Assembly: GCA_030699385.1 (NCBI GenBank)
Contig: JAUYMY010000083.1
Coordinates: 62,001 to 126,000 of the forward strand
Length of the DNA stretch: 64,000 nucleotides
From: Methylobacter sp.
GTDB lineage: Bacteria > Pseudomonadota > Gammaproteobacteria > Methylococcales > Methylomonadaceae
Reading direction: 5' to 3'
Both the position numbers and the translations under genes were made by a program. The notes beneath the pieces are model-generated. The model made no database searches. It was not told where the DNA came from and was given only the letters and a program-made list of their open reading frames with translations. Below, one piece after another: positions 1,794 through 17,143 of the stretch; within the stretch, counting starts at the first letter, position 1, and every line of letters starts with the position of its first letter.

Positions 1794-3086
1794 TTACAAC
1801 ACATTGGCATAGTCTTGTTCCAGCTGCCTGAAATTCATCGTCGACATGAAGCGGCTGAAACTTAGCCAAGACGAAAGCCCCATCAGATCCTTGAACTGCG
1901 GCGGCAGAAAGATTGGCGCAATCACTGTGCCTTCGTCAACTAGATCGGCCAATACTTTCATATCCTCTATCATGGTCTTGCCGCAAAACAACAAGGGGAT
2001 ACGATCCGGTTTGCCCTTGCTGACCGCCAGACGCATGAAATTATAAGTCAGCACAAAGCCCTTGATGTAGGTTAAATCTTTAGTAAATGGCATACCGTTC
2101 GAACTGCTGCCCCGAAATACCCGACTGCTCAGCGTGTAACTTTCATCCTGGTCCAGACCTTTATCCTGAAAGAAATAGAAGATGTCCATAAAGTCCGCGC
2201 CTTCTTCGGCCAAGGTGATAGCGCGCACTCGGTTTATCAGCCGCATCAGCCGGTTAGGGGTGGAGCTGAAGGTTAATATTTCCATCAATACCGCCAGACC
2301 TTCCTGGGTGATGGTGGCCGACGGCGGCCCTTTGCCGAGAAAGGTGCAATACGGTTGCGCTAGGCCGTTCAGCGTGGTGCCCAGATGCACCCATATTTCG
2401 TGGACTTCCAGCACCCGCAAATCACGCATGTTGAACATCGCATCGGCGCGCAGTTTGATGTAATCGGTGCCGGCGGCGGCATCGGCGAGGATGCCGTCGC
2501 TGAGCATGGCGCGCAGGCCTTCGCCGGGAAATACGGCCTGTATTTTTTCATTCAGGATGGCGACTGCATCTTGTGCGTTGATGGTTTTGGCTTCCTCGAC
2601 CAGAAAATCCAGTTTAAGTAATTGCGCCAAGGTTGCTTCCATCATGCTGCCCAAATCGGCAATATTCGGGTCGCCGACATGAAAAACGTCTTGTGACGAG
2701 CCGTATAATTCTTGGGAAATATTGGCGAAAGTAGGCTTGCCTCGGGCCTCTAACATGCGCACGACGTCCAAATATTCCTTGCAAATGCGGCGCATGATGA
2801 CGCTGAGAGGATTCAGTTGGCCGAGTTTGCGTTTTAAATCGCGCTCAATCTGGTAAAACTCGTGCTTTTTTTCGTTCGGATCGAAGCCTAAAGGGCGGTT
2901 TTGATAATAATCCGGCGTGACCAGCGGCGATTTTTTACAATGGCCGTCAAAAAAAGCCTGTTTTATTTGATCATCCCATTTGATCGCGTCGAGTATGCGG
3001 ATTGGTTGCTGGGCTTTGACGATACGGTCGGACAGCGCTTTGACCTCGGTCAGATAAGCGGACGGTTTAACGGCTTTTTTGCGCAT
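1794..3086 (-). CDS. QEGLA-motif (DUF1704, TIGR02421-type) putative metallopeptidase
   Basis: The 430-residue protein matches the family annotated as 'flavohemoglobin expression-modulating QEGLA motif protein'. The name-giving motif TQEGLAVLME is at residues 260-269. VHEIWVHLG supplies an HExxxH motif at 229-234. The same HExxxH plus downstream glutamate arrangement defines the eukaryotic MATCAP tubulin tyrosine carboxypeptidases that share the DUF1704 fold, so a zinc carboxypeptidase activity is plausible. The ATG at 3086 is preferred because GGAAGA lies just upstream. An ATG at 3098 and a TTG at 3116 are alternatives. It lies 283 bases downstream of the transglutaminase/Anbu locus on the same strand, with a MITE-like repeat between. 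Confidence 0.82.
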   Translation of the reverse strand: MRKKAVKPSAYLTEVKALSDRIVKAQQPIRILDAIKWDDQIKQAFFDGHCKKSPLVTPDYYQNRPLGFDPNEKKHEFYQIERDLKRKLGQLNPLSVIMRRICKEYLDVVRMLEARGKPTFANISQELYGSSQDVFHVGDPNIADLGSMMEATLAQLLKLDFLVEEAKTINAQDAVAILNEKIQAVFPGEGLRAMLSDGILADAAAGTDYIKLRADAMFNMRDLRVLEVHEIWVHLGTTLNGLAQPYCTFLGKGPPSATITQEGLAVLMEILTFSSTPNRLMRLINRVRAITLAEEGADFMDIFYFFQDKGLDQDESYTLSSRVFRGSSSNGMPFTKDLTYIKGFVLTYNFMRLAVSKGKPDRIPLLFCGKTMIEDMKVLADLVDEGTVIAPIFLPPQFKDLMGLSSWLSFSRFMSTMNFRQLEQDYANVL

Positions 3087-3131
3087 GTTGTCTTCCATTA
3101 ACGTTACGGTGATCAAATCACAGGGGTATTG

Positions 3132-3369: not shown

Positions 3370-4155
3370 TTACGAGAGCAAGTTGACACGAACATCCATG
3401 CTGTTCAACACACAACCGACGCCAAACTGATGGAATATCGACACATCGGCGGCGTCGCGCCCCACCGCGATAACCACTCGGCCATCTTGTAGACTGTTCT
3501 GTGTAGGGTCGAAAACATACCAGCGATCGCCGATATAGGCCTCAAACCAGGCGTGTAAATCCATCGGTTCAAGCTGGTACAAATATCCGGCTGCCAGCCG
3601 CGCCGGAATACTGATGCTTCGGCATAAGGTGATGGCCAGTTGGGCCAGGTCTTTGCAGACGCCATAGCCTTGGTGATTAACCTCAACAGCCGAAAGCGGG
3701 CTATCGGAGGAACCGGGAATGTATCGAATGGACTGGTGAACCCAGTCATTAATTTTTTTGACCTGATCGTAACCCGGTTGCGCATCGCCTACGACCTCTC
3801 TGGCAAGATCGCCAAACCGGTCTGATTCGCAATAGCGGCTCGGCAATAAATAAAGCAGAACCTGATCGGGAAGATTTTGTATTTCAACGAAATAAGCCGT
3901 CGCTGCGTTATCAATAACGCTTGCCGTGATGACCTCGAAGGCAGTATGAATAGAAAATTCTCCTTGCGGGGCAATCAGGCGTTGACAGCAATTTCCATAG
4001 CAGTCGTGGCTTTCAGTTATCTGTACAGCAGGTTCAACGACATAACTGGATTGGGCAATCCATTGCTGTGCGTTACTGACAGGACGCAACATCAAAATTA
4101 AGGCTGTCGGGTCGTCTATCTGAAAGTGAAGGTCGCAACTAACGCTTAATTTCAT
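3370..4155 (-). CDS. Transglutaminase-like cysteine protease family protein
   Basis: The 261-residue protein has the transglutaminase-core catalytic triad in order: Cys167 (YGVCKDLAQLA), His201 (MDLHAWFEAY) and Asp216 (YVFDPTQ). The N-terminal ~110 residues form the beta-rich domain typical of bacterial transglutaminase-like proteins. No signal peptide is visible, so it is probably cytoplasmic. Bacterial members more often act as peptidases or amidases than as cross-linkers. It lies 15 bases downstream of the Anbu peptidase on the same strand and is the last gene of the minus-strand ATP-grasp/alpha-E/transglutaminase set. Confidence 0.88.
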   Translation of the reverse strand: MKLSVSCDLHFQIDDPTALILMLRPVSNAQQWIAQSSYVVEPAVQITESHDCYGNCCQRLIAPQGEFSIHTAFEVITASVIDNAATAYFVEIQNLPDQVLLYLLPSRYCESDRFGDLAREVVGDAQPGYDQVKKINDWVHQSIRYIPGSSDSPLSAVEVNHQGYGVCKDLAQLAITLCRSISIPARLAAGYLYQLEPMDLHAWFEAYIGDRWYVFDPTQNSLQDGRVVIAVGRDAADVSIFHQFGVGCVLNSMDVRVNLLS

Positions 4156-4170
4156 TTCTGTTTCCTCAAT

Positions 4171-4926
4171 TTACAAATCGACCCGCATGACTTTAACGGC
4201 TTCTTTAGTGAGGCAGGGCAGTGCCTTTATCGCCTCCCGCAGCTTGGTTTCCCAGCTGCGCCGTAGTTGCAGCAAATAATCGTCATCGTTGTCAAAGCAA
4301 TAATATTCGTCGAAGCTGAAGCTGTCTTTGCGGTAGATCAGCATGTCTACCGGTGCGCCGACACTGGCATTACTGCGGATGGTCGAGTCCATCGAAACCA
4401 GACAGCAGCGCGCCGCTTCGTCAATGGAGGTATCCAGTTTAAGGAAGCGGTCGAGTATCGGCTTACCGTATTTGCTTTCGCCGATTTGCAAAAACGGCGT
4501 GTTGGCCGAACTGGTGATGCTGTTGCCTTCGGCATAAACCATATAAGCGCCATGCGGTTCGTCGCCGATTTGACCGGCCAGGATGAAACTGGCGGAAGGG
4601 TTGAAAGCCGATTGGCCTTCGGTTGACAGATGCTGTTTTTGTTTTTCGACGCTGACATGACCCAGATAGGCGGCAGCTTCGGACAGACATTCGACGTTAT
4701 TGATATTGACCCCGGCATTTTTAATTTTGTCGCGATGCAGTTGTTCCAAAACCGCCTGTGTGGTGGCAAGATTGCCTGCACACAATAAGACAATTTTGCG
4801 GTCATCGTTAGTTTTAAAGGCATGCATTTTGCCGTGGGTACTGACGTTATCAATGCCGGCATTGGTTCTTGAGTCGGAAACCAGAATAAGTCCTTCGTCT
4901 ATCGAGGCTGCAATACAATAGGTCAT
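4171..4926 (-). CDS. Anbu: proteasome-type Ntn-hydrolase peptidase
   Basis: The 251-residue protein belongs to the bacterial proteasome-related family (COG3484, 'ancestral beta subunit'). After removal of Met1 the N-terminal residue would be Thr1 (MTYCIAA), the Ntn nucleophile. Asp17 (LVSDSRTNAG) and a Lys at 32 (HGKMHAF) sit where the proteasome beta subunit has Asp17 and Lys33. Family members assemble into large open-ring oligomers without a known dedicated ATPase. Its neighbours (two transglutaminases, ATP-grasp, alpha-E) are the well-known genomic partners of Anbu and support the call. It is predicted to be cytoplasmic. Confidence 0.92.
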   Translation of the reverse strand: MTYCIAASIDEGLILVSDSRTNAGIDNVSTHGKMHAFKTNDDRKIVLLCAGNLATTQAVLEQLHRDKIKNAGVNINNVECLSEAAAYLGHVSVEKQKQHLSTEGQSAFNPSASFILAGQIGDEPHGAYMVYAEGNSITSSANTPFLQIGESKYGKPILDRFLKLDTSIDEAARCCLVSMDSTIRSNASVGAPVDMLIYRKDSFSFDEYYCFDNDDDYLLQLRRSWETKLREAIKALPCLTKEAVKVMRVDL

Positions 4927-5042
4927 AAAAATGTTCGTTTGTTGTAGTTAATGATGCTTTGCCACATTATCCTGCAAAGCCATGTCAACGTCTATGTTGC
5001 TCAAAACACACTTGAAACTTTCTGTTCACCACAACCCAGGTT

Positions 5043-5070
5043 GTGGGAGCGGCCACCCGGCCGCTCCCAC
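5043..5070. repeat. Palindromic repeat, family A (short form)
   Basis: This is a perfect 12-bp inverted repeat, GTGGGAGCGGCC / GGCCGCTCCCAC, separated by ACCC. It lies between the Anbu gene and the stop of the upstream transglutaminase gene. The arms equal the outer arms of the two longer copies at 8622-8688 and 16375-16437. It could fold in mRNA and separate expression of the two genes, but it lacks a T-tract. Confidence 0.8.
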
Positions 5071-5085
5071 AATAATGTCGCTATG

Positions 5086-6033
5086 TCATTCCAATCTCAA
5101 CACATCGACAGACACCGACAAAGTATGCGAGCCGCCGCCAAAGGCGATGCCTTTTAACGGCGTGACATCGGTATAATCGCGCCCCCAGGCCAGGGTGATA
5201 TGTTGGTCGAACGGCAGGGCGTTATTAGTGGGATCAAAATCCAGCCAGCCGGTGTCGGGCACGTATACTTCAAACCAGGCGTGGGACGCATCGGCACCGA
5301 CTAAACGCGGCTTGCCCGGTTCCGGTAGCGTTTCCACATAACCGCTGACATAGCGCGCGGCAATGCCCATAGAGCGTAAACAAGCAATCGCCAAATGGGC
5401 AAAATCCTGACACACGCCACGGCGAAAATGCAGTACGTCGGATAATGGCGTGGCAATGGTGGTAAAGCTGGGGTCGTAAGTGAAATCCACATGAATGCGC
5501 TGCATTAAATCGGTCACAACTTGCACCAACGGCCTGCCGGGGTTAAATGAAGGCAGAGCGTAGTGGGCGAGTTCTTCGCTGCTGTTCACCATCGGCGAAT
5601 CGAGCAGGTACAGCTTGGCGTCCTGTAAGTCGTCATCCGGGCACTCTTGCTGTTGTTGCTGGCTTTGCGATTGTGATTGCGACTGTGTTTGTCTTTGCAT
5701 TTGTGCAGGCCGACCTTGCAGGCGGTCGCGCACCTGCTCCCAGGTGATTAAATTGGTTGGATGGTCACGGCTTTGCCGGGGAAATACGGTCACTTCGCTG
5801 ATTGCCGTCACCATCAGGCGTTGATGTGCCTGTTGTATGGCGAAATAGGCGACGCGGTTGCCGAAAAAATCCAGGCGTTGCTGAAAATCAGCGGGTTCAG
5901 GCGTAATGTCAAAACGGCTGCTCTGGCATTGCTGACGCCAGAAATCGCGTGGCTGCAAGCGTGCTTCATTCTGGCACAGGCCGACCATTTGGCTGTATTG
6001 GTACAGAGTGCTGTGGGTGATGCGGTATTTCAC
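5086..6033 (-). CDS. Transglutaminase-like protein with Gln/Ser tract
   Basis: The 315-residue protein has the beta-rich N-terminal transglutaminase domain (MKYRITHSTLYQYS) and then the core, with Cys208 (RRGVCQDFAHLA), His251 (ASHAWFEVY) and Asp267 (WLDFDPTNN). A low-complexity tract of alternating Gln/Ser and poly-Gln spans residues 114-130 between the domains and probably forms a flexible linker. The start overlaps the stop of the upstream ATP-grasp/alpha-E gene by 4 bases (ATGA), indicating translational coupling. This is the transglutaminase subtype usually found beside alpha-E genes. Confidence 0.92.
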   Translation of the reverse strand: MKYRITHSTLYQYSQMVGLCQNEARLQPRDFWRQQCQSSRFDITPEPADFQQRLDFFGNRVAYFAIQQAHQRLMVTAISEVTVFPRQSRDHPTNLITWEQVRDRLQGRPAQMQRQTQSQSQSQSQQQQQECPDDDLQDAKLYLLDSPMVNSSEELAHYALPSFNPGRPLVQVVTDLMQRIHVDFTYDPSFTTIATPLSDVLHFRRGVCQDFAHLAIACLRSMGIAARYVSGYVETLPEPGKPRLVGADASHAWFEVYVPDTGWLDFDPTNNALPFDQHITLAWGRDYTDVTPLKGIAFGGGSHTLSVSVDVLRLE

Positions 6034-8591
6034 AGTTCATCCTCCGCTTGCGTTGGCGTCATCAGTTGCGGCATTTGGGAATGGCTGAAATAGGCTTGCG
6101 CCAGCACTTCATACAGTTGCCATAACAACGTTGTCAGCATTGACAAAATATTCTCCAGCTCTTTGTACACGCTATCTTCGTCGTCGGCCTGAATCAGTTC
6201 GGATACTTTGAGCAGGCGCAAATCGGTGTAAGCCCTGAGTATTAAACGCTCTTCTTCACTCAAGCGACCATTGCTGCGTTCTCTGGGCAAGGCGCCGATA
6301 TGGTTGGATAACTGCTGCAATTGATAAACCAGCGAACGCGGATGGGTTTCATCCTGCAGCAATAATTCCAGCACCATCGGCAACTGGATAAATGAACGGT
6401 AGCGGCGGCGGTAAATGCTCAGGCTATCGGTGGACACCAACACCGCTTCCAGCAGCTGGTTTTGCAAGGCCGGTTCGTGACGTTGCACCACCGTGGCGCG
6501 CAGCAACGCAACCAGGGCCAGTGAGCCCTCCAAACGGCGGCCGCTATCGAGCATCAACCAACCGGCTTCGCGGGTCATGCTTTCGGTGGTCAACCCAATA
6601 AAAGCGACAAAGCCGGTCATTAAATCATCCAGATGTTTTTGCAGTTGCTCCAGATCGCACTCGTTATTGACCACTCGCTGTTGCCAGCGACGCTGAATGT
6701 TGTCGACGCAGCGCCAGGTATCTTGGGACCATGCATCGCGGATACTGAAAGCGGTTTGGGCAAAGGCTTGGATATTGGCGGTCAAGGTACCGGCGCGTTG
6801 GGCATTTTTAGCCAAATCCAGCAGTTCATGCTGGGGCTGCTTTAATACGTCAGCATTGCTCTTGATAAATCCCGGATAAGTGCCGGTCACCTGGGTCAGC
6901 GCGCACAGCAACACGCTCAGGCTCTGGCTATTGAGCGGGTCATCAGATTCCAGTGTTGTGGTTAATTTGAGCACTATGGTGCGCAGCAAACGCGTGGACG
7001 TCTTGATGCGTTCCAAATGCCTGCCCACCCAAAACAGGTTATTGGCGGCGCGGCTGGTTAGCGGTTCGGTGACCGGCGATAACACTACATTGCGCCCGGC
7101 CTGCAGCCATAAGCTGACCTGCCTATCCGGTTCGTCTGCCAATACCCAGGTGTCCTTGCTGATGCCGCCGGCCTGATTCGACACAATAAAATCATTTTGC
7201 TGGCGCGCCACCCGGGTCAGGCCGCCGGGCATCACCTGATAGCCGTCGCCGGCGGCAACGACAAAATTGCGCAACACCGCAAAGCGCGGCTCAATATGAT
7301 GGTCGACCAATGCCGGCACAGTGGAAAAACTGACATGCTCCTGACCGACATAACAATGCGGTTTGGCGATAATGGCGGCGCGCAGGCGCTCTTTTTCCTT
7401 GCTGCTTAACGCGCCGCCAAACAGCACATGATGGCCCGCACTGCGGTTAATCGGCTTAATCACCAGCCGGTCGAGATTTTGCAGCACAAAATCGCGCTCA
7501 CGGCGCTGACCGCACCACCATGTTGCCACCGACGGCAACAGCAATTCCTGATTTAAAAAATAGCGCGAAAGCCGGGGCAAAAAGGCTAACAAGCCCGGAT
7601 TTTCCAGCACGCTACTGCCCAGGGGATTGGCAATCGCCACGTTGTTGCGGCGCACCGCTTCGAGCAGTCCGGCAACACCGAGCCGGGACGCGCTGCGCAA
7701 TTCCAGCGGGTCGCAAAAAGAATCGTCAACACGGCGCAAAATAACATCGACCGGCTGCAAACCATCCAGCGATTTAAGCCAGACGCGGCCATCGCGCACG
7801 GTCAGATCGTCGCCCTGAACCAGTGAAAAACCCAGATAAGACGACAAATAGGCATGTTCAAAATAGGTTTCATTCAGCGAACCCGGCGTCAGGATAACGA
7901 TGCGCGGGTCTTCCTTATTATGCGGCGCACTGTCGGCCAGCCCTTTACGCAAGGCCTTAAAAAATACCGATAGCCGATGCACTTGGGTTTCCCGGAAGAT
8001 GTCCGGCAACACCCGTGTCATCACGGTGCGGTTTTCCAAAGCATAGCCCGCGCCTGAAGGTGCCTGGCTTCTGTCATCCAATACCCACATGCGGCCGTTA
8101 TGGCCACGGGCAAGGTTGGCCGAATAGACAATCAGATGGCGCTGCTGGTGGGGCAGGGCGCCCACGCAAGGATGTAAAAAGCCGTCATGCGCCAGCACCA
8201 GTTCACTGGGTAATAGGCCTTTTTTTAACAGCTGCTGTTTGCCGTAGATGTCTTTTAACACCAAATCGAGCAGCTCGGCGCGTTGTTGCAAACCGGCCTC
8301 AATCAGCCGCCATTCGTCGCTGCTGATCAGTAGCGGCACAGGGTCAAGCCGCCACGGGCGGGTCAGTTTTTGGCTGTCGCCGTAAACATTGTAAGTTACG
8401 CCGTTTTCCCGTAACAAACGCTGGGCTTCACGGCGGCACGATTCCAGCTGTTCGCTGCCCATTGCGCCCATTGCATCCATAAAGCGCTCCCAATGCGGCA
8501 GCACCTTATGTTCTTTGGCGAGCATTTCATCGTAAACGCCCAATTGGGTGGCGTAAAACTGTACGCCAATATCGTTGGCTGATGCGTTCAC
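6030..8591 (-). CDS. Fused circularly permuted ATP-grasp and alpha-E domain protein
   Basis: The 853-residue protein is a fusion. Residues 1-485 match the circularly permuted type-2 ATP-grasp family (COG2308), with the conserved blocks LVIKPINRSAG near 376-386 and GGLTRVA near 456-462. Residues ~512-835 match the all-helical alpha-E domain (COG2307), starting LTSRAANNLFWVGRHLER. ATP-grasp amidoligases activate a carboxylate as an acyl phosphate and join it to an amine. The alpha-E role is unknown. A split version of the same two domains is encoded at 13964-16368. The gene overlaps the downstream transglutaminase by 4 bases and lies 115 bases after gltA. The substrate is not predictable. Confidence 0.93.
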   Translation of the reverse strand: MNASANDIGVQFYATQLGVYDEMLAKEHKVLPHWERFMDAMGAMGSEQLESCRREAQRLLRENGVTYNVYGDSQKLTRPWRLDPVPLLISSDEWRLIEAGLQQRAELLDLVLKDIYGKQQLLKKGLLPSELVLAHDGFLHPCVGALPHQQRHLIVYSANLARGHNGRMWVLDDRSQAPSGAGYALENRTVMTRVLPDIFRETQVHRLSVFFKALRKGLADSAPHNKEDPRIVILTPGSLNETYFEHAYLSSYLGFSLVQGDDLTVRDGRVWLKSLDGLQPVDVILRRVDDSFCDPLELRSASRLGVAGLLEAVRRNNVAIANPLGSSVLENPGLLAFLPRLSRYFLNQELLLPSVATWWCGQRRERDFVLQNLDRLVIKPINRSAGHHVLFGGALSSKEKERLRAAIIAKPHCYVGQEHVSFSTVPALVDHHIEPRFAVLRNFVVAAGDGYQVMPGGLTRVARQQNDFIVSNQAGGISKDTWVLADEPDRQVSLWLQAGRNVVLSPVTEPLTSRAANNLFWVGRHLERIKTSTRLLRTIVLKLTTTLESDDPLNSQSLSVLLCALTQVTGTYPGFIKSNADVLKQPQHELLDLAKNAQRAGTLTANIQAFAQTAFSIRDAWSQDTWRCVDNIQRRWQQRVVNNECDLEQLQKHLDDLMTGFVAFIGLTTESMTREAGWLMLDSGRRLEGSLALVALLRATVVQRHEPALQNQLLEAVLVSTDSLSIYRRRYRSFIQLPMVLELLLQDETHPRSLVYQLQQLSNHIGALPRERSNGRLSEEERLILRAYTDLRLLKVSELIQADDEDSVYKELENILSMLTTLLWQLYEVLAQAYFSHSQMPQLMTPTQAEDEL

Positions 8592-8621
8592 ATGAGGCCT
8601 TGTTAATTTACTTGAAGATAG

Positions 8622-8688
8622 TTGTGGGAGCGGTCACCCGGCCGCGAACAATTGCGGGCTGTTCGCGGCCGGGTGGCCGCTCCCACAA
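8622..8688. repeat. Palindromic repeat, family A (long form)
   Basis: A near-perfect 29-bp inverted repeat (arms 8622-8650 and 8660-8688, one G-T wobble, 9-base loop) begins TTGTGGGAGCGG and ends CCGCTCCCACAA. It lies between gltA and the ATP-grasp/alpha-E gene on the same strand. It is almost identical to the copy at 16375-16437. A hairpin this stable may attenuate transcription between the two genes. Confidence 0.85.
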
Positions 8689-8706
8689 TCACTATAGCCT
8701 CATCCA

Positions 8707-10011
8707 TCAAGACCGTTGTTCAATGTCCTGATAATGCCGTAACGGCTCGCCGACATAAATCTGGCGCGGGCGGGTAATAATCACATTCTCGCTGTGCAGC
8801 ATTTCCCGCCAGTGCGCCATCCAACCGGGCATCCGGCCAATGGCGAATAACACCGTGTACATATTGGTGGGGATACCGGCCGCACGGAGAATCAGACCGG
8901 AATAAAAGTCGACATTCGGGTACAGTTTGCGGGAAATGAAATAGTCGTCTTTTAAGGCGATTTCCTCCAAGCGTTGGGCTATATCAAATAACGGATCGTT
9001 AACCCCCGCCTTGTTCAATAACTTGTCGCATTGTTTTTTTAACACCATGGCGCGCGGGTCGAAATTTTTGTAAACGCGATGGCCAAAGCCCATTAACCGG
9101 CGTGTTGAATTTTTGTCTTTGGCCTGGTTGATAAATTCGGTGCCGTCGCCGCCTTCGGCATGTATTTGCTCAAGCATCTGTATCACTTCCTGATTGGCAC
9201 CGCCGTGACGCGGCCCCCACAGCGCCGAAATGCCGGCCGAAGCCACGGCGTAGACATTGGCCATGCTGGAGCCTGCGGTACGCACCGACGAAGTGCTGCA
9301 ATTTTGCTCATGGTCGGCATGTAAAATCAAAAACATATCGATAGCCCGAACGATGTCGTCATCTAATTGGTAATCACGCACCGGCGATGAAAACATCATG
9401 TTCAGAAAATTGCGCACATATTTAAGTTTATAAGACGGATAAATCAGCGGTTCGCCGATTGATTTCTTATAAGAAAACGCGGCGATAGTGCGCACCTGCG
9501 ATATTAAATTGATCACAATTTGCTGTTCTGTTGCAGGATCGAGCTGGTCGGTAATCGGGTAGAAGGTGGATAACGATGCCACCATCGTCGCCAAAATCCC
9601 CATAGGATGGGAGCCGCGCGGGAAGCCGTTAAAAAAATGATGCATGTCTTCATGGATAATCGAAGAGCCATTAAGGTCGGCTGAAAACTGCTCCAATTGC
9701 TGGGTATTAGGCAGTTCGCCATTCAGCAGCAGATAGGACACTTCAATAAAACGTGAATGTTCGGCCAATTCTTCAATCGGATAACCGCGATAACGCAGTA
9801 TGCCGGCATCGCCATCGATATAAGTGATGGCGCTTTTGCAGCTGGCGGTATTGCCATAGCCGTCATCCAGAGTCACGTATTGGCTTTGGTTGCGCAAATT
9901 GGAAATGTCGATGGCTTTTTCGCCTTCAACGCCGATCATTGTCGGCAATGAGTAGTCTTTATTGTCCAGCGTTAATGTAGCCGGAGCTAATGGCTTTAAT
10001 CTATCGGTCAT
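8707..10011 (-). CDS. gltA: Citrate synthase (type II, hexameric type)
   Basis: The 434-residue enzyme condenses acetyl-CoA and oxaloacetate to citrate. Visible signatures include ILHADHEQNCSTSSVR, SALWGPRHGGANQ (catalytic His) and MGFGHRVYKNFDPRA, followed by the C-terminal YVGEPLRHYQDIEQR. The start is placed at the internal ATG giving MTDRLKPLAPATLTLD, with GAGAGAG upstream. An earlier start at 10074 would add 21 unconserved residues. It sits inside the ATP-grasp/transglutaminase locus on the same strand, an unusual position for a TCA-cycle gene. Confidence 0.96.
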   Translation of the reverse strand: MTDRLKPLAPATLTLDNKDYSLPTMIGVEGEKAIDISNLRNQSQYVTLDDGYGNTASCKSAITYIDGDAGILRYRGYPIEELAEHSRFIEVSYLLLNGELPNTQQLEQFSADLNGSSIIHEDMHHFFNGFPRGSHPMGILATMVASLSTFYPITDQLDPATEQQIVINLISQVRTIAAFSYKKSIGEPLIYPSYKLKYVRNFLNMMFSSPVRDYQLDDDIVRAIDMFLILHADHEQNCSTSSVRTAGSSMANVYAVASAGISALWGPRHGGANQEVIQMLEQIHAEGGDGTEFINQAKDKNSTRRLMGFGHRVYKNFDPRAMVLKKQCDKLLNKAGVNDPLFDIAQRLEEIALKDDYFISRKLYPNVDFYSGLILRAAGIPTNMYTVLFAIGRMPGWMAHWREMLHSENVIITRPRQIYVGEPLRHYQDIEQRS

Positions 10012-10030
10012 TTGAATATCTCTCTCAAGG

Positions 10031-10052
10031 CTGATGGCTACGAGGCCATCAG
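10031..10052. repeat. Hairpin in the gltA 5' leader
   Basis: A perfect 8-bp inverted repeat, CTGATGGC / GCCATCAG, with a 6-base loop lies 20 bases upstream of the gltA start. In minus-strand RNA it would form just before the ribosome binding site. It may affect gltA translation or end transcription from the upstream 1125-residue gene. No T-tract follows. Confidence 0.5.
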
Positions 10053-10075
10053 TTAATATTATTCCAGTATTCAAT

Positions 10076-10098
10076 GGTACGCACAGCGCACCCTATGC
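10076..10098. repeat. Short interspersed repeat, family E (single arm)
   Basis: The sequence GGTACGCACAGCGCACCCTA recurs, with few changes, at 13762-13783 and in inverted orientation at 13714-13735. It lies between gltA and the end of the DUF2126 fusion gene. No function is evident. Confidence 0.55.
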
Positions 10099-10108
10099 CG
10101 CACAGGCA

Positions 10109-13100
10109 TTATCCAGCCCGGTGCCGCAAGTCCATTGTAAACGGATATTCCGAACTTGGCTCCTCAATAGGCGGCGACATCGGTCTGGGCATGGCGCCGT
10201 GGGTGCTAAATTGCGCGCTTGCCAGAAAGTCGGACGACAGACTAATAGGCTGGCGCTCAATGATACCGGGCGTATGGCCAAAATCCCAAAACCGGGTGAC
10301 ACGCCGCGCTTCGGCTTCATAGCTGTTCACCGGGAAGGCATCGTAACTGCGGCCGCCGGGGTGGGCAACATGATAAGTGCAACCGCCGACCGAATGGCCG
10401 TTCCAGGTATCAATCACATCAATCACCAAGGGCACATGCGGGCTGATGGTCGGATGCAGCGCGGAAGGCGGTTGCCAGGCGCGGTAACGCACACCGGCGA
10501 CATATTCGCCTTTGCGGCCGGTGTTGCGCAGCGGCAGGCGTCTGCCGTTACAAGTCAGCACATAGCGGCCCTCGGTAAAACCGCTGACTTTAATTTGCAC
10601 CCGCTCGACCGATGAATCCACATAGCGCGCAGTGCCGGTGCTGCTGACTTCTTCGCCGAGCACATGCCAAGGCTCAATGGCGAAACGCATTTCCAGCTCA
10701 ATGCCGTCGATCAGCGTGCTGCCGTAACGCGGAAAACGGAATTCAAAAAACGGTTCCAGCCAGTCCAATTCAAAGCCGTAGCCGGCACGTTGCAAGTCTT
10801 TAGTCACCTGCTTCATATCTTCGCGGACATAATGTGGCAACATGAAACGGTCATGCAGTTTGGTGCCCCAGCGAATCAAATCGTGTTTGTACGGTTCGCG
10901 CCAAAACCAGGCAATCAGCGAGCGCAACAGCACCATTTGCACCAGCGACATTTGTGCATGGGGCGGCATTTCAAAGGCGCGCAACTCCAGTATGCCCAAG
11001 CGCCCGGTCGAGCTGTCCGGTGAGTAGAGTTTGTCGATGCAGAACTCGGAACGGTGGGTGTTGCCGGTAATGTCGGTCAACAAATGCCGCAACAGCCGGT
11101 CGACCAGCCAAGGGGAGGGCACGTCGCCTTCGGGCATTTGCTGGAAAGCGATTTCCAGTTCATACAGCTTTTCATCGCGGCCTTCATCGACACGCGGCGC
11201 CTGGCTGGTTGGGCCGATGAACATGCCGGAAAACAAATACGACAAGCCCGGATGATGCTGCCAGTAAGTCAGTAAACTGCGCAACAAATCGGGGCGGCGC
11301 AGCAACGGGCTGTCGGTCGGCGTTTCCGCGCCCATGGTGATATGGTTGCCGCCGCCGGTGCCGGTGTGGCGACCGTCCAACATGAATTTTTCCGTGCCTA
11401 ACCTGACCTGACGCGCCTGCTCATACAGCAGGGTGGTTTTTTGCACCAATTCCGGCCAGGTTTTCGACGGATGGATATTGACCTCAATCACGCCGGGATC
11501 GGGCGTTACCATCAAGCGTTCGATGCGGTAATCGCGTGGCGGCTCATAGCCTTCGAGCACCACCGGCAGCGCCAGATTTTCAGCGGTCGCTTCGACCGCA
11601 GCAATCAACTCCAGATAATGTTCCAGCGAGGTCAGCGGCGGCAGGAAAATATGCAAACGGCCTTCGCGCGCTTCGACACACACCGCCGTATGCGGCACTT
11701 CCACTTCGATAGTTTGGGCATCGCCGATTTCCTGTTCGGGATAGTCCTTGAGCTTTTGTTCGATGCGGCTGTAACGGCGGGAAACTTCGCCGTAATAATC
11801 GCCCAGTTCCGGCAAGGCCTGGAACAAGCTTTGCTCTTCCTGGGTGTCGCGTTGGTCGGGTGCTACCCAAGGCAAACTGGCCAACGGCAAACGCAAGCCC
11901 ATTGGTGAATTGCCCGGCAGCAAAAACATCTGACCACGGCGAAAATCCCAAGGGCCGCTTTGCCAGCGTTGCTGCGCCCAGTCCCATTTAACCGGCAAGG
12001 TAAAGCCTGCGGGCGTCGCCAAATCTTCATCGAGCAGTTGCATCAGCGTTTTGCGCTCAATCGAATCTTTCAGATCGCAGCTTAACGGGTCGATATTGTC
12101 CGGCAATGTGCCTTCCTGCCACAGATAGTAAAAGCTGTCTTCAAACGCGGTCTTGATGTAGCGCGGTTGCAAGCCCAGACGCAAGGCAAACTGCTTGATA
12201 AAGGCTTCCGCCTGTTCGACGCCATGACCGTAATCTTTGCTAATGTCGGCCAGCAGTTCCGGTTTTCGCCAAAGTGCTACGCCGTCTTTGCGCCAGAAAA
12301 TGCCGTATTGCCAACGCGGCAACGCCTCGCCCGGATACCATTTGCCTTGCCCGTAATGCAGCATCGCGCCTGCGGTAAACTGATCGCGCAAACGCAAGGT
12401 CAACTGATTGGCCAGCTCGCGCTTGTGTGTGCCATCGGCATCGACATTCCATTCCGCGCCTTCCATATCGTCAGCCGAAACAAAAGTCGGCTCGCCGCCC
12501 ATGGTCAGTCGCACATCATCGGCCTGTAATTGCCGGTCAACCTGCAAACCCAGCGCGTCAATGCGGTACCATTGATCATCGCTGTACGGCTTAGTCACAC
12601 GCGGGTCTTCATGCAATCGCAGCACTGTGTTGCTAAATTCAAACGCGACTTCGCATTGATCGGTGCCGCCGGTGACCGGCGCGGCGCTGGCAGGATCGGG
12701 CGTACATGCCAGCGGAATATGGCCTTCGCCAGCCAGCAAACCGGACGTGGGGTCCAGTCCTATCCAACCGGCGCCCGGAATGTACACTTCAGCCCAGGCA
12801 TGTAAATCGGTGAAATCCTGTTCCGGCCCGGACGGCCCATCCAGCGATTTAATATCGGCAGTCAACTGCACCAAATAGCCGGACACAAAGCGCGCCGCAA
12901 GTCCCAAATGGCGCAGTATTTGCACCAGCAACCAAGCCGAATCGCGGCAGGAACCGCTGAGCGAGGTCAGGGTTTGTTCACAGCTTTGAATGCCGACTTC
13001 CATGCGGATGTTGTAGCTGATCGCCTGAAACACTTTGCGGTTCACATCAACCAAAAAATCATTGATGGTGCGTTTACTTAAATCAAAGTTCGCCAGCCAT

Positions 13101-13486
13101 TGTTTCAGCAAGGGCCCTTGCTCGGTAATTTCCAGATAAGGCTGTAATTCTTTCAATAAAAGCGCATCGTAGCTAAACGGATATTGTTCGGCATAGTCTT
13201 CGACAAAGAAGTCAAACGGGTTGATCACCGTCATGTCGGCGATGACTTCCACTTCAATGCTAAGTTGTGTGCATTTTTCCGGAAACACCACCCGCGCCTG
13301 CAGGTTGCCGAATGGGTCTTGCTGCCAGTTGATAAAATGATTTTCCGGCGTAATGCGCAGACTATAGCCTTTAATCGGCGTGCGGCTATGCACCGCCGGG
13401 CGCAGCCTGAAGACATGCGGCGACAGGGATACCGGCCTATCAAAGCTGTAAACAGTTTTGTGACGGACAGCTACTCGAATGGTCAT
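10109..13486 (-). CDS. Transglutaminase-DUF2126 fusion protein
   Basis: The 1125-residue protein starts with a transglutaminase module: beta-rich domain at 1-95, then Cys180 (SGSCRDSAWLL), His229 (TDLHAWAEVY) and Asp245 (IGLDPTSG). From about residue 300 onward it matches DUF2126, with LTMGGEPTFVSADDMEGAEW and long conserved blocks such as DGRHTGTGGGNHI. The transglutaminase-DUF2126 fusion is a known partner of circularly permuted ATP-grasp and alpha-E genes. The start is set at MTIRVAVRHKTVYSF because AGGAAA precedes that ATG. The upstream start at 13540 lacks support. It is divergent from the split ATP-grasp/alpha-E pair and is predicted to be cytoplasmic. Confidence 0.93.
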   Translation of the reverse strand: MTIRVAVRHKTVYSFDRPVSLSPHVFRLRPAVHSRTPIKGYSLRITPENHFINWQQDPFGNLQARVVFPEKCTQLSIEVEVIADMTVINPFDFFVEDYAEQYPFSYDALLLKELQPYLEITEQGPLLKQWLANFDLSKRTINDFLVDVNRKVFQAISYNIRMEVGIQSCEQTLTSLSGSCRDSAWLLVQILRHLGLAARFVSGYLVQLTADIKSLDGPSGPEQDFTDLHAWAEVYIPGAGWIGLDPTSGLLAGEGHIPLACTPDPASAAPVTGGTDQCEVAFEFSNTVLRLHEDPRVTKPYSDDQWYRIDALGLQVDRQLQADDVRLTMGGEPTFVSADDMEGAEWNVDADGTHKRELANQLTLRLRDQFTAGAMLHYGQGKWYPGEALPRWQYGIFWRKDGVALWRKPELLADISKDYGHGVEQAEAFIKQFALRLGLQPRYIKTAFEDSFYYLWQEGTLPDNIDPLSCDLKDSIERKTLMQLLDEDLATPAGFTLPVKWDWAQQRWQSGPWDFRRGQMFLLPGNSPMGLRLPLASLPWVAPDQRDTQEEQSLFQALPELGDYYGEVSRRYSRIEQKLKDYPEQEIGDAQTIEVEVPHTAVCVEAREGRLHIFLPPLTSLEHYLELIAAVEATAENLALPVVLEGYEPPRDYRIERLMVTPDPGVIEVNIHPSKTWPELVQKTTLLYEQARQVRLGTEKFMLDGRHTGTGGGNHITMGAETPTDSPLLRRPDLLRSLLTYWQHHPGLSYLFSGMFIGPTSQAPRVDEGRDEKLYELEIAFQQMPEGDVPSPWLVDRLLRHLLTDITGNTHRSEFCIDKLYSPDSSTGRLGILELRAFEMPPHAQMSLVQMVLLRSLIAWFWREPYKHDLIRWGTKLHDRFMLPHYVREDMKQVTKDLQRAGYGFELDWLEPFFEFRFPRYGSTLIDGIELEMRFAIEPWHVLGEEVSSTGTARYVDSSVERVQIKVSGFTEGRYVLTCNGRRLPLRNTGRKGEYVAGVRYRAWQPPSALHPTISPHVPLVIDVIDTWNGHSVGGCTYHVAHPGGRSYDAFPVNSYEAEARRVTRFWDFGHTPGIIERQPISLSSDFLASAQFSTHGAMPRPMSPPIEEPSSEYPFTMDLRHRAG

Positions 13487-13555
13487 GGTTTTTTTCCTAT
13501 TGCCAAGGGTGTTGGGCGTTGTAAATGCGCTGCTTCCCAATAAAATACAGGCGTG

Positions 13556-13587
13556 TTCCAGCCGCGACGCCTACGTCGCGGCTGGAA
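13556..13587. repeat. Perfect 14-bp palindrome
   Basis: TTCCAGCCGCGACG and its exact complement CGTCGCGGCTGGAA flank the loop CCTA. It lies in the divergent spacer, 69 bases upstream of the DUF2126 fusion start. A weaker relative (CCGTTCC...GGAACGG around GACGC) is at 58618-58644. Confidence 0.8.
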
Positions 13588-13713
13588 ACCGTTTTGTCTC
13601 CCATGAAGGCAAGCAAGCACCATACCAAACGGCTAAAACGCTTATCTGTTGTTCGCCATTTTTATCCGCCATCAGGGTGATTTTATTGGGTTCTCTGTAC
13701 TCGCCGCGCACAG

Positions 13714-13783
13714 TGTAGGGTACGCTGCGCATACCGTTAGTTTGTAACTTGGCGTCGGTAAGGTACACACAGCGCACCCTGTA
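13714..13783. repeat. Inverted pair of family E repeats
   Basis: GTAGGGTACGCTGCGCATACC (inverted) ends at 13735, and GGTACACACAGCGCACCCTG starts at 13762. Together they could form a large imperfect hairpin with a 26-base loop. A third, single copy is at 10076-10098. The arrangement recalls paired REP-type elements. Confidence 0.65.
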
Positions 13784-13963
13784 TTACGTTATTTTTGATT
13801 GTCGTTATTGCGCCAAATTGGTGCATCCATTCGCTAAAATAGGGCGCAACGCCCGCAAAAGGCGCGGTTTTAAACGATGGCAAGGCACAGCTATCAGCAG
13901 CTAACCAAACATGGCACTAATGATGCTAATTGTTTACTAAACCCACTAGCCATAGCATACGCC

Positions 13964-15415
13964 ATGAAATCAATCTGGAAAAACTACAACACCGACAGCG
14001 CTTACGATGAACTGATGAGCTCGGAATTCCAGCCCAGGCAAATCAGTCACCGCTTATGCCAATACCTGCACTCGCTCAATGCCGACGATATTGACAAGCG
14101 CAAAATGGCGGCTGAACTGGCCATTTTGGAAATGGGCATCAGTTTCACCGTCTACAGCGATGAAGGCAACATAGACCGCGCCTGGCCGTTCGACATCATT
14201 CCGCGCATCATTGCCTCTACCGAATGGCGCATCATCGAAAAAGGCTTAAAGCAGCGTCTGACCGCGCTGAACTGCTTTATCGCGGATATTTACAGCGAAC
14301 AGGCCTTTATTAAAGACGGTCTTATGCCTGCGGAAATTATTCTCAGCTCAAAAAATTTCCGCAAAGAATGTGTCGGCATGACACCACGCCACAACGTGTG
14401 GGCGAACATTTGCGGCACTGATTTGGTACGCGACAAAGACGGCATTATGTACGTATTGGAAGACAATTTACGGGTGCCTTCGGGGGTTTCCTACATGCTG
14501 GAAAACCGGGTCATCACCAAACGCGTATTCCCCGAACTGTTGCAGGACATCGACATCCTGCCTATCGACGACTATCCCAGCCGCTTGCAGGATATGCTGA
14601 CCTCGCTGGCGCCGGAACACATCAGCAAACCGCAGATTGTGGTGTTGACGCCGGGTATTTATAACTCGGCTTATTTTGAACACGCTTATCTGGCGCAGCA
14701 AATGGGCGCGCAACTGGTTGAGGGCGGCGATCTGGTGGTCAATGACGACGATTGCGTGTACATGCGCACCATCGAAGGACTGGAAAAAGTCGACGTGATT
14801 TACCGGCGCATTGACGACGATTTTCTTGACCCCGAAGTATTCCGCAAAGATTCCAGCTTGGGCGTACCGGGTTTAATGCGCGCCTGGAAAGCCGGCAATG
14901 TGTCGTTATCGAATGCGCCGGGTGCCGGTGTAGCCGATGACAAAGTGGTTTATGCCTATGTGCCTGAGATGATCCGTTATTACCTGAACGAGGAACCCAT
15001 CCTGCCCAATGTGCAAACTTATTTGTGCGGCAACCCCGAACATTTGGAGTATGTATTGGCGCACTTGCCCGAACTGGTGGTTAAGCCTGCCAACGAATCG
15101 GGCGGTTACGGGATGCTGGTCGGCCCCCATGCCAGCAGCCGGGAAATCGCCGCATTCCGGCAAATCATCCAGGAAAACCCGCGTAATTATATCGCCCAAC
15201 CGACCTTGGCGATTTCCACTGCACCGACCTTGTGCAAAGGCCAGCTCGAACCCCGGCATATCGACCTGAGGCCGTTTATTTTGCAGGGCGCAAATACCTT
15301 TGTCACCGCCGGTGGCTTAACCCGGGTCGCGCTAAAAAAAGGCTCGCTGGTGGTCAATTCCTCGCAAGGCGGCGGCAGCAAAGACACCTGGATTATCAAC
15401 ATGGAGCGCAGCTAA
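13964..15415 (+). CDS. Circularly permuted ATP-grasp protein (stand-alone)
   Basis: The 483-residue protein belongs to the COG2308 family. Visible conserved blocks are LRVPSGVSYMLENRVITKRVFP, VVLTPGIYNSAYFEHAYLA, DVIYRRIDDDFLDP, LVVKPANESGGYGMLVGP and the C-terminal GGLTRVALKKGSLVVNSSQG followed by GGSKDTW. Members are predicted amidoligases that form an amide bond at the expense of ATP. The start MKSIWKNYNTDSAYDEL fits the family. A frame open from 13877 could add 29 residues. The ribosome binding site is weak. The stop overlaps the alpha-E start (TAATG), so the two products are almost certainly made together. Confidence 0.92.
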   Translation: MKSIWKNYNTDSAYDELMSSEFQPRQISHRLCQYLHSLNADDIDKRKMAAELAILEMGISFTVYSDEGNIDRAWPFDIIPRIIASTEWRIIEKGLKQRLTALNCFIADIYSEQAFIKDGLMPAEIILSSKNFRKECVGMTPRHNVWANICGTDLVRDKDGIMYVLEDNLRVPSGVSYMLENRVITKRVFPELLQDIDILPIDDYPSRLQDMLTSLAPEHISKPQIVVLTPGIYNSAYFEHAYLAQQMGAQLVEGGDLVVNDDDCVYMRTIEGLEKVDVIYRRIDDDFLDPEVFRKDSSLGVPGLMRAWKAGNVSLSNAPGAGVADDKVVYAYVPEMIRYYLNEEPILPNVQTYLCGNPEHLEYVLAHLPELVVKPANESGGYGMLVGPHASSREIAAFRQIIQENPRNYIAQPTLAISTAPTLCKGQLEPRHIDLRPFILQGANTFVTAGGLTRVALKKGSLVVNSSQGGGSKDTWIINMERS

Positions 15416-16368
15416 TGTTATCCCGATCAGCAGAACGCCTGTATTGGCTAGCCCGTTATCTTGAACGCACTGAAAATATCGCCCGATTGGTCAGTGTACA
15501 CATGAATTTACTGATGGATTTGCCCAATAGCGTGGAAATGAGCTGGCTGCAATTAGTCCGCATCAACGGCGCCAAACAGGAGTTCCATGAAAAATACAAA
15601 GTGGCCAACGAGCATAACGTCACCCGGTTTTTGTTAGTCGACGAAAGCTATCCCGGCTCGTTGTTTTCGTCGTTAATCGCGGCGCGGGAAAATATCCGCA
15701 CCTCCCGCGATTTGCTGCCTGATGAAGCCTGGGAGCAGGTCAACGAAATCTACCTGTTTGTAAAAAACAACATCGATTCGGTGTACAACCGCAGCAACCG
15801 GGTGGCGTTTCTGAACGAAATCCTCAAAGGCTGCCAACGCTTTACCGGACTGTTATCGGGCTATATGAGCCACAATCATCCCTACCGGTTTATTCGTTTG
15901 GGCAAAAACATTGAGCGTGCCGATATGACCAGCCGGATTCTGGACTTGGCGTCCTTGCTGCTGGCCGAATCGCGTAGCGATGAAATGCGCCAATATGAGA
16001 GCATTTTATGGGTGAACATATTAAAATCGCTAAACGCCCAATTAATGTATCGCCAACAAGTCCGAAGCAGTGTCAATGGCGATGACGTGCTGACTTTTTT
16101 ATTGTTAAACACCAGCCTGCCGCGCTCAATTGGCTGTTGTATTGCTGAAATCGCCGGTTGTATCAATGCCTTGCCCAACAGCGACGGCTTGCCTGACGAT
16201 GTGGTTAAACTGGATGCTTATGTACAAGCTATTGACACCCATCAAACCACCGAAACGCAATTACGTGGAATCCTGGACAACCTGCAAAACAAGCTGGGGC
16301 AATTACACGCCAGAATAGCTAATAACTGGTTTTTACCCGCCGTAGTGGAAGCTCAGGCAAACCAATAG
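15415..16368 (+). CDS. Alpha-E domain protein (stand-alone)
   Basis: The 317-residue all-helical protein matches COG2307 (alpha-E), starting MLSRSAERLYWLARYLERTE, with the conserved ENIRTSRDLLPDEAWEQVNE and FIRLGKNIERADMTSRILD blocks. The start overlaps the ATP-grasp stop by one base. An upstream reading frame (from 15232) is only overlap with the ATP-grasp gene. The biochemical role is unknown. Constant pairing with ATP-grasp suggests that it binds the product or carries the growing chain. It pairs with the same module that is fused in the protein encoded at 6030-8591. Confidence 0.92.
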   Translation: MLSRSAERLYWLARYLERTENIARLVSVHMNLLMDLPNSVEMSWLQLVRINGAKQEFHEKYKVANEHNVTRFLLVDESYPGSLFSSLIAARENIRTSRDLLPDEAWEQVNEIYLFVKNNIDSVYNRSNRVAFLNEILKGCQRFTGLLSGYMSHNHPYRFIRLGKNIERADMTSRILDLASLLLAESRSDEMRQYESILWVNILKSLNAQLMYRQQVRSSVNGDDVLTFLLLNTSLPRSIGCCIAEIAGCINALPNSDGLPDDVVKLDAYVQAIDTHQTTETQLRGILDNLQNKLGQLHARIANNWFLPAVVEAQANQ

Positions 16369-16456: not shown

Positions 16457-17143
16457 ATGAAATTTTCCATTATTATTCCTGCCCTAAACGAACAGGAAGG
16501 TATCAAAAATTGTCTGTCGGCATTACAACCTTATCGCGACCAAGCTGAAATCATTTTGGTGGATGGCGGCAGTTTGGATAACACGCTAGCTATTGCCTCG
16601 CCCTTAGTCGATAAAGTCCTAACCAGCGCCAAAGGCCGTGCTAGGCAAATGAATGTTGGCGCAAAAGCAGCTACAGGCGATTTATTGATTTTCTTGCATA
16701 GCGATACTTATTTACCCGATCACGCCTTGACCTTAATCAATGACAGCGCAGTGTGGGGACGCTTTAACATCCGCTTAACCGGTTCACATTGGCTGTTGCC
16801 GCTTATCAGTCAGCTGATGAACTGGCGTTCCCGTTTAACCGGGATTGCCACCGGTGATCAGGCGATTTTTGTCAAAAAAGCCATGTTTGATGCCGTTAAC
16901 GGCTACGCCGATATAGCCTTAATGGAAGACATTGATTTAAGCCGACGTTTAAAAAAAATAACTCCGCCGTTGTGTTTAAGCGCAAAAGTGCAAAGTTCCG
17001 CGCGGCGCTGGCAAACATTTGGCGTGTTTAAAATGATTGCCTTGATGTGGCGTTGCCGGCTGGGTTATTTTTTGGGCGAAAAACCGGAGGTCTTGGCGCA
17101 GCTTTATCAACAAGGGCGTTTTTGGCTGCCGTTTAAACTGTAA
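16457..17143 (+). CDS. GT-A glycosyltransferase, TIGR04283-like
   Basis: The 228-residue protein has the family 2 glycosyltransferase N-terminus (FSIIIPALNEQEGI), VDGGSLDNT in the nucleotide-sugar site, FLHSDTYLP as the DxD-like motif and EDIDLSRRLKK as the acceptor-side motif. Length and sequence agree with the TIGR04283 family ('rSAM/selenodomain-associated transferase 2', also linked to arsenosugar synthesis). Its usual partner, TIGR04282, is found 12 kb away at 28998. No membrane segment is obvious. The substrate is unknown. Confidence 0.83.
   Translation: MKFSIIIPALNEQEGIKNCLSALQPYRDQAEIILVDGGSLDNTLAIASPLVDKVLTSAKGRARQMNVGAKAATGDLLIFLHSDTYLPDHALTLINDSAVWGRFNIRLTGSHWLLPLISQLMNWRSRLTGIATGDQAIFVKKAMFDAVNGYADIALMEDIDLSRRLKKITPPLCLSAKVQSSARRWQTFGVFKMIALMWRCRLGYFLGEKPEVLAQLYQQGRFWLPFKL

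Follow-up and report, generated by a model that had tools for sequence, protein, structure and literature searches.

The genes of the locus

We analyzed a locus in a 64-kb stretch of contig JAUYMY010000083.1 (hereafter the window, meaning the whole stretch; all coordinates are window positions). The locus is an Anbu / alpha-E / circularly permuted ATP-grasp / transglutaminase-like / DUF2126 system, a known kind of gene set that is predicted to join and cut amide bonds. It contains two ATP-grasp copies, one encoded separately from its alpha-E partner (split) and one fused to it, and the fused copy is predicted to have lost its catalytic site. Within the best 80 of 594 loci, the named relatives closest to the split ATP-grasp belong to Methylovulum and other Methylococcaceae metagenome-assembled genomes (MAGs); the host is probably a methane-oxidising bacterium. 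The genes of the locus are the following (TG, transglutaminase-like).

3370..4155, minus strand: TG1, transglutaminase-like protein with intact triad (Pfam core and triad)
4171..4926, minus strand: Anbu Ntn-hydrolase with Thr1/Asp17/Lys32 (match to solved Anbu sequences)
5086..6033, minus strand: TG2, transglutaminase-like protein with intact triad, overlapping the fused gene by 4 bases (Pfam core and triad)
6030..8591, minus strand: fused circularly permuted ATP-grasp and alpha-E (CP_ATPgrasp_2 and Alpha-E), with a degenerate ATP-grasp motif (Pfam)
8707..10074, minus strand: citrate synthase, second paralogue, between TG-DUF2126 and the fused gene (Pfam)
10109..13486, minus strand: TG-DUF2126, a transglutaminase-like domain fused to a DUF2126 putative amidoligase (PF09899, 1351 bits; PF08379; PF01841)
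13964..15415, plus strand: split circularly permuted ATP-grasp (CP_ATPgrasp_2) with E195-x-N197 and an SGGYG loop (Pfam; the open reading frame (ORF) opens at 13877)
15415..16368, plus strand: split alpha-E protein (Pfam)

The minus-strand genes are transcribed in the order TG-DUF2126, citrate synthase, fused gene, TG2, Anbu and TG1, and the split ATP-grasp and alpha-E genes are divergent from them on the plus strand. The minus-strand gaps, taken from the listed ORF ends, are 34, 115, -4, 159 and 15 nt, which makes a single transcript plausible. The ORF of TG-DUF2126 opens at 13540 and its probable start, with the upstream sequence judged by eye, is the ATG at 13486. The split ATP-grasp probably starts at the ATG at 13964: there is no conservation before Met30, and Met-Lys-Ser-Ile-Trp is found at this position in the three nearest relatives. 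The split alpha-E gene starts at the ATG at 15415, which has one base in common with the ATP-grasp stop codon; the start at 15232 given in an earlier, sequence-only description of this DNA (the original prediction) lies too early.

The fused ATP-grasp copy has lost the catalytic motif

The E-x-N metal-binding motif and the glycine-rich loop are present in the split ATP-grasp and absent from the fused one. In the numbering of the split protein P0006, the fused protein of the window carries the replacements E195>D, N197>R and E407>R, and its loop reads SAGHH instead of SGGYG. When all ATP-grasp domains were aligned, E195 and N197 were each found in all 92 distinct split proteins and in none of the 39 fused ones. 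Likewise, Glu407 is present in 83/92 split versus 0/39 fused proteins, Gly409 in 92/92 versus 3/39 and Gly412 in 92/92 versus 1/39. Two other positions are invariant in the 92 split proteins and kept in part of the fused group (Asp182, 26/39; Lys403, 29/39). A new motif is conserved among the 39 fused proteins in place of the old one, with D196 in 39, R197 in 34 and Q199 in 36.

The motif of the split copy, D-L-x2-D-x2-G-x4-L-E-x-N, has a spacing which, by eye, equals that of Escherichia coli YgiC and is close to that of the glutathionylspermidine synthetase Gss. An hhalign comparison of the split ATP-grasp alignment with Gss and YgiC of E. coli, each as a single sequence, gave no significant match, so the equivalence of the motifs was judged by eye and from the similarity in fold. 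In human glutathione synthetase, a Glu and an Asn of this kind bind Mg. The motif lost from the fused copy corresponds in kind to E163 and N165 of the fungal ATP-grasp protein Cp1B, for which the published excerpt states that replacing R139, D141, E163 or N165 by Ala left little or no activity (PMC12568646).

A midpoint-rooted tree of the 39 fused rows and 35 randomly drawn split rows, in which several fused branches are long, placed the fused rows all on one side of a 100/100 branch, pointing to an old pair and not a local duplication. The fused rows named in the printed part of this tree come from Pseudomonadota, Verrucomicrobiota, Planctomycetota and Actinomycetota. In trees of the order, long and fully supported branches also separate the split from the fused ATP-grasp domains. 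The original prediction described a duplicated ATP-grasp/alpha-E module, and one fused and one split pair do exist; the two are not equivalent ligases, as the fused one is without the catalytic motif and they lie on opposite sides of these branches. We found no mention of the loss of catalytic residues from the fused copy in the open-access literature searched, to which Iyer et al. 2009 does not belong, and its novelty is not established.

The structure model of the fused protein (pLDDT 85.5, pTM 0.83) gave 39 Foldseek matches at E <=0.001, all of them ATP-grasp proteins, with 3n6x as the best (E 3.6e-34). The alpha-E model is confident and all-helical; Foldseek against the PDB gave nothing for it at E <=0.001, and a second look gave scores at the level of helical bundles.

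The other enzymes of the locus keep their conserved residues

Pfam detected transglutaminase cores in 3370-4155, in 5086-6033 and at the N-terminus of the ORF 10109-13540. The DUF2126 match (PF09899) covers positions 1-826 of 826 of the model and lies in the same 1143-aa protein as a transglutaminase domain; a PDB sequence search with this protein gave matches confined to the transglutaminase part. Both window copies of alpha-E match PF04168 and have its conserved ER motif. Anbu falls just below the Pfam Proteasome cut-off (21.3 vs 22.4 bits, E 2.4e-4) and matches five solved Anbu sequences with E values from 5.5e-66 to 2e-47. All domains named in the original prediction are therefore present.

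Thr1, Asp17 and Lys32 are found in the Anbu of the window, in agreement with the earlier count of Thr1/Asp17/Lys32, and the Cys-His-Asp triad attributed earlier to all three TG proteins of the window is indeed there. By alignment columns, the full triad is present in 98 of 106 TG rows, which include the window and in which a few overlapping stretches are counted twice (47/51 TG-DUF2126 proteins, 34/36 TGs following the fused gene, 17/19 other TGs). Rows missing the triad are explained by gaps or truncations, save two with P/A at the Cys and two with Ala at the His. The alpha-E motif W-x(1,2)-R[YH]-x-ER is kept in 63/70 split and 26/28 fused rows. As the alpha-E half keeps its W-RY-ER motif and the TGs keep their triads, only the ATP-grasp half is affected by the loss. 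From these sequence comparisons, the fused copy is predicted to be a non-catalytic partner whose catalytic site has been lost.

Some observations on the TG proteins stand apart. In TG2, the two domains have a Gln/Ser repeat (QSQSQSQSQQQQQ) between them. Next to the other (type I) Anbu set, two TG-like proteins, at L039 7831-8724 and L045 8067-8969 (L numbers are our locus labels), have Ala in the catalytic His column (DFAGWFEAY). Two loci, L068 (6501-13244) and L069 (7001-13833), contain tandem TG-DUF2126 pairs, of which the second copy is more divergent from that of the window and fails a triad pattern; these may be another active/degenerate pair.

Linkage and co-occurrence

Genome lists, 71 for the order and 150 for the phylum, were compared by eye. 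Within the order, Anbu is present in 35, alpha-E in 36 and DUF2126 in 26 genomes, and alpha-E accompanies Anbu in 35/35 and DUF2126 in 26/26 cases, so that the linkage extends beyond one strain, the point on which the original prediction had made itself dependent. The one alpha-E genome beyond the 35 with Anbu (G044) has broken pieces on an 8.4-kb contig. For the phylum sample, the numbers are 84 (alpha-E), 46 (DUF2126) and 54 (Anbu), with alpha-E present in 46/46 DUF2126 genomes and in 53/54 Anbu genomes, the sole Anbu genome without an alpha-E match being G164 (G164:C88:6041-6775).

The fused gene is tied to DUF2126. Of the 150 genomes, 44 have a fused gene and 46 have DUF2126, and 41 have both (Fisher p 1.3e-27); 'fused' in this count is a proxy, namely an alpha-E match in an open frame of >=780 aa, which fails in G011 of the order, where a long frame is found without an in-frame fusion. 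In 36 of 42 cases, the next gene within 200 nt of the fused gene on its strand is a TG gene that follows it.

In the scan of named genomes, which covered the best 80 of 594 loci, a fused ATP-grasp/alpha-E gene lies beside the split ATP-grasp by which the locus was found in 29 loci, 22 of which also have DUF2126 within the stretch analysed. The order split ATP-grasp, alpha-E, TG-DUF2126, fused gene, TG on one strand occurs in at least 10 of these 80 loci (L079, L084, L089, L094, L099, L100, L138, L144, L145, L149), ranging from Marinomonas to Pedosphaera, Rhodopirellula and Desulfuromonas MAGs; the counts of this five-gene order are lower bounds, since the ORF overlap filter removed some ATP-grasp genes (e.g., in L080 and L107). 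The window contains a rearranged form of this set plus Anbu, TG1 and citrate synthase.

An exclusive pairing of the split pair with Anbu and of the fused gene with DUF2126 was rejected: G060 and G048 have Anbu near the fused gene and are missing the window-type split copy, and TG-DUF2126 stands beside other split ATP-grasp types in L050, L053, L055, L057, L060, L061, L062, L065 and L071. In search of a small protein substrate, we also clustered 1997 ORFs of >=60 aa, taken from the first 22 kb of the window and from L032-L151 (121 stretches in all); the 45 largest clusters included no family with a median <150 aa that occurred in >3 stretches. A recurrent extra partner, a protein with a zinc ribbon and a Peptidase_Mx metallopeptidase domain, was found beside ATP-grasp/alpha-E genes in 18 of the 121 stretches (e.g., L105 1830-2921 and L095 10405-11478) and not in the first 22 kb of the window.

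Matches to the split ATP-grasp also occur on plasmids: there are 117 such plasmid records, 67 of them from Sinorhizobium, and a 90-kb Enterobacter roggenkampii plasmid (NZ_CP116251.1, 22777-24225) encodes an ATP-grasp that is 70% identical to the split copy.

Predicted nitrogen-type control sites

The following sites were found between and upstream of the two divergent gene sets.

13809..13825, plus strand: NtrC-like site TGCGCCAAATTGGTGCA, 1/17 mismatch to the consensus TGCACCAWWWTGGTGCA (pattern match)
13912..13926, plus strand: predicted sigma54 promoter TGGCACTAATGATGC for the split pair, 37 nt before the ATG at 13964
13613..13627, minus strand: candidate sigma54 promoter TGGTATGGTGCTTGC for TG-DUF2126, weaker (pattern match)

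The window site was scored against TGCACCAWWWTGGTGCA, which we take to be the enterobacterial NtrC consensus, and it is the only NtrC-like site with <=2 mismatches in the 64-kb window. The predicted promoter of the split pair begins 86 nt after it in the divergent region, and TGGCAY-N5-ATGC stands 38, 38 and 37 nt before the same start in the relatives G015, G054 and G051, respectively. The genome holds one match above the curated ntrC cut-off, plus rpoN. Beside the candidate TG-DUF2126 promoter, the divergent region also has an inverted repeat with perfectly matching 14-nt arms and a 4-nt loop (TTCCAGCCGCGACG-CCTA-CGTCGCGGCTGGAA, 13556-13587).

Across the whole window, the sigma54 pattern with <=1 mismatch gives 35 matches versus 34 expected; window-wide counts are thus uninformative, and only the position before operons and the comparison across loci count. 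For this comparison, genes of the first 22 kb of the window and of L032-L151 were kept if they had 300 nt of sequence and a gap of >=80 nt upstream; each was screened from -300 to +60 for sigma54 matches (<=1 mismatch) and NtrC-like sites (<=4 mismatches), and other genes were dropped. Sigma54 matches were found at 39 of 70 ATP-grasp gene heads versus 25 of 409 other genes (p 1.3e-21) and NtrC-like sites at 24/70 versus 24/409 (p 4.8e-10), p-values that overstate independence, as the loci are related and a few stretches overlap. A simpler count over the best 80 loci gave 33/80 versus 35/726 for sigma54 and 15/80 versus 29/726 for NtrC. The heads of TG-DUF2126 genes are moderately enriched for sigma54 matches (7/26, p 0.0015). 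Judged from these sites, the locus is probably under nitrogen-starvation control.

Neighbouring genes

The citrate synthase and the probable nitrogen control are points that go beyond the original prediction. The citrate synthase (8707-10074) is 51% identical to the other citrate synthase of the genome, and the same paralogue, 85-90% identical, lies between TG-DUF2126 and the fused gene in G015, G054, G051 and G048. Of 11 genomes of the family that were tested, 5 contain the window-type enzyme (G000, G015, G054, G051, G048), and we therefore rejected it as a conserved component and consider it lineage-specific.

A MATCAP/QEGLA-type metallopeptidase gene (1794-3116; MATCAP family, 431 bits) lies on the same strand as TG1, 253 nt past it. 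MATCAP is present in 11 of the 71 genomes of the order and adjoins the system only in the window genome; its distance is ~29 kb in G051 and, measured from the split pair, ~23 kb in G008, and elsewhere it is far away or on other contigs, a comparison limited by fragmented assemblies. Without conserved adjacency, it is not supported as a conserved partner. Directly after the split alpha-E gene, on the same strand, is a gene for a TIGR04283 arsenosugar-biosynthesis-type glycosyltransferase (16457-17143, 262 bits).

Discussion

The families found here, the Anbu operon, the release of orthophosphate from ATP by the Y. bercovieri (Yersinia) ATP-grasp (PMC6376114, excerpt), the missing Anbu peptidase activity and the nitrogen control are already known. 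The phosphate release covers part of the in vitro assay suggested with the original prediction. Iyer et al. 2009 reportedly found ATP-grasp, alpha-E and transglutaminase-like genes together, as they are in the window, and interpreted them as serving peptide synthesis or modification; DUF2126 is said there to be a glutamine-synthetase-like amidoligase. The term DUF2126 was not found in the open-access literature searched on these systems.

The Anbu operon of Pseudomonas, Yersinia and Burkholderia-like bacteria, already described in the accessible part of PMC5666114, contains ATP-grasp, alpha-E, transglutaminase-like and Anbu genes, all of which are present in the window, where the Anbu triad is intact and the split copy provides the circularly permuted ATP-grasp with intact motif next to alpha-E. 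The window also has predicted NtrC/sigma54-type sites, and P. putida and B. cenocepacia are reported to have this operon under nitrogen control. In contrast to the contiguous conserved order of the four genes in that operon, the window set is on two strands, with TG-DUF2126, citrate synthase, the fused gene and TG2 in between. Beyond the Anbu operon, the window has the fused ATP-grasp/alpha-E, a second TG, TG-DUF2126 and the citrate synthase.

Nitrogen regulation of such genes is already known elsewhere, and what is added here is its probable presence in this locus and its breadth. According to the published excerpts, P. putida PP_2685-2688 rise on nitrogen limitation or when nitrate replaces ammonium (PMC7801951, PMC8050072, PMC3325844), B. 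cenocepacia I35_5080-83 are NtrC-dependent (PMC5491218), an RpoN site is listed before a CP_ATPgrasp gene of Bradyrhizobium DOA9 (PMC13207237), COG3484 is counted among sigma54-regulated groups (PMC12316311), and in marine metagenomes these domains are linked with urea metabolism domains (PMC3597751).

The gene set, its linkage and co-occurrence, the motif loss in the fused group and the promoter motifs are read from sequences, and we infer from them the reactions, the reaction order, the scaffold role and the nitrogen-recycling purpose of the following scheme. Nitrogen shortage would switch the locus on through NtrC and sigma54. The split ATP-grasp, with alpha-E as its partner, would be the working ligase, activating a carboxylate as an acyl phosphate and then joining it to an amine, and DUF2126 would be a second amidoligase. 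The fused ATP-grasp/alpha-E would be a degenerate, non-catalytic twin, most likely assisting the DUF2126 step as a scaffold or by presenting the substrate. The TG-like proteins and Anbu would cut or transfer the resulting amide or isopeptide bonds and so recycle the conjugate. A ligase-built peptide or protein conjugate, as put forward in the original prediction, may then be the product. As a whole, an NtrC/sigma54-switched system with a working split ligase, a non-catalytic fused twin, and TGs and Anbu for recycling is our best explanation, and we consider it about evenly poised between right and wrong.

Several observations weigh against it. Lys403 and Asp182 are kept in 29 and 26 of the 39 fused proteins, so residual nucleotide binding is possible. 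In the phylum sample, alpha-E occurs without Anbu in 31/84 genomes and without DUF2126 in 38/84. At <=1 mismatch, 31 of the 70 ATP-grasp heads have no sigma54 match, and no sigma54 enrichment was detected at the heads of fused (3/27), Anbu (1/22), TG (1/13) and alpha-E (0/5) genes, nor at those of Peptidase_Mx genes (1/9). No sigma54 site was found at the head of TG-DUF2126 in G054 and G051, nor within the 162 nt available for G015. In one strain column of the P. putida data excerpt, PP_2685 (Anbu) rose only 1.12-fold and its partners 11- to 15-fold (PMC7801951). The excerpt of PMC6376114 describes no specific interaction among the Yersinia operon proteins and no peptidase activity for the Anbu proteins studied, which are from species other than that of the window.

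The most serious competitor is a small-molecule route, which we regard as a real but somewhat less probable possibility. The ligases would make a soluble pseudopeptide or polyamine amide, as Gss and YgiC do, with the TGs and Anbu acting as amidases and proteins remaining unmodified. The 39 Foldseek matches of the fused model speak for it, as they comprise 3n6x, glutathione and homoglutathione synthetases and their effector kin, Cp1B, Gss, YgiC and trypanothione synthetase, and E. coli YgiC is annotated as a peptide-spermidine ligase. Gss, YgiC, homoglutathione synthetase and Cp1B share with the window proteins the fold and, for the split copy, the E-x-N motif, which the fused copy is missing; the Gss and YgiC sequences examined have no alpha-E domain. 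However, Anbu is a homologue of proteasome subunits, and Gss and YgiC are very distant in sequence by the hhalign comparison with single sequences. We place the small-molecule and protein-conjugate readings close together. A specific form of the latter is protein tagging and recycling under nitrogen starvation, with the split ligase and DUF2126 attaching a small amine or peptide tag, the dead twin presenting the substrate, and the TGs and Anbu removing or degrading the tag, as a counterpart of the Pup-proteasome outside Actinomycetota. The Pup-proteasome, which has a role in nitrogen recycling, likewise combines an amidoligase with a proteasome homologue; no Pfam match to the Pup/PafA family was found in the 20 locus and neighbour ORFs scanned (225-25810), a search that covered those ORFs and not the genome. 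We judge this form rather improbable. A similar ligase and peptidase logic is seen in the rim/rlo operons (RimK/RloC ATP-grasp, aspartic peptidase, inactive 7TM transglutaminase), of which rlo has an inactive member; their ATP-grasp proteins are other than those of the window, and the excerpt of PMC12239564 does not name alpha-E, DUF2126 or Anbu for them.

On another reading, in line with the duplicated module of the original prediction, the fused protein would be an active ligase with a re-invented site built on D196, R197 and Q199, working in series with the split one. The conservation of this new motif in place of the old one fits such a site; the complete absence of E195, N197 and E407 from the fused group, the scrambled glycine loop and the long branches of several fused rows make it unlikely. 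It is similarly doubtful that the Anbu set and the DUF2126 set are two unrelated systems that are merely neighbours here. In G015, G028, G032 and G008, the fused gene and the split pair are >70 kb apart or on different contigs, and DUF2126 is missing from 10 of the 35 Anbu genomes of the order, as expected for independent systems, but the one-strand five-gene order recurs in the 10 loci listed above, among them the Pedosphaera, Rhodopirellula and Desulfuromonas MAGs. Least probable by far is that the MATCAP-like metallopeptidase belongs to the system, in a ligase/carboxypeptidase cycle as in tubulin tyrosination; its strand, its distance to TG1 and its family match agree with membership, which is weakened by the missing conserved adjacency.

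The preferred scheme of a working split ligase and a non-catalytic fused twin bears on how these systems are studied. As late as 2021, the accessible part of PMC8665760 described Anbu, a relative of the proteasome in bacteria, as having no known function, and alpha-E genes are widespread, being present in 84 of the 150 sampled genomes of the phylum. Since one of the two ATP-grasp copies is predicted to be dead and is tied to DUF2126, the copies should not be regarded as interchangeable ligases, and nitrogen-starved cultures are the ones worth testing. As far as the published excerpts go, the biochemistry has used Anbu alone or the four-gene set (PMC5666114, PMC6376114); the fused twin and DUF2126 may be the parts that it has been missing.

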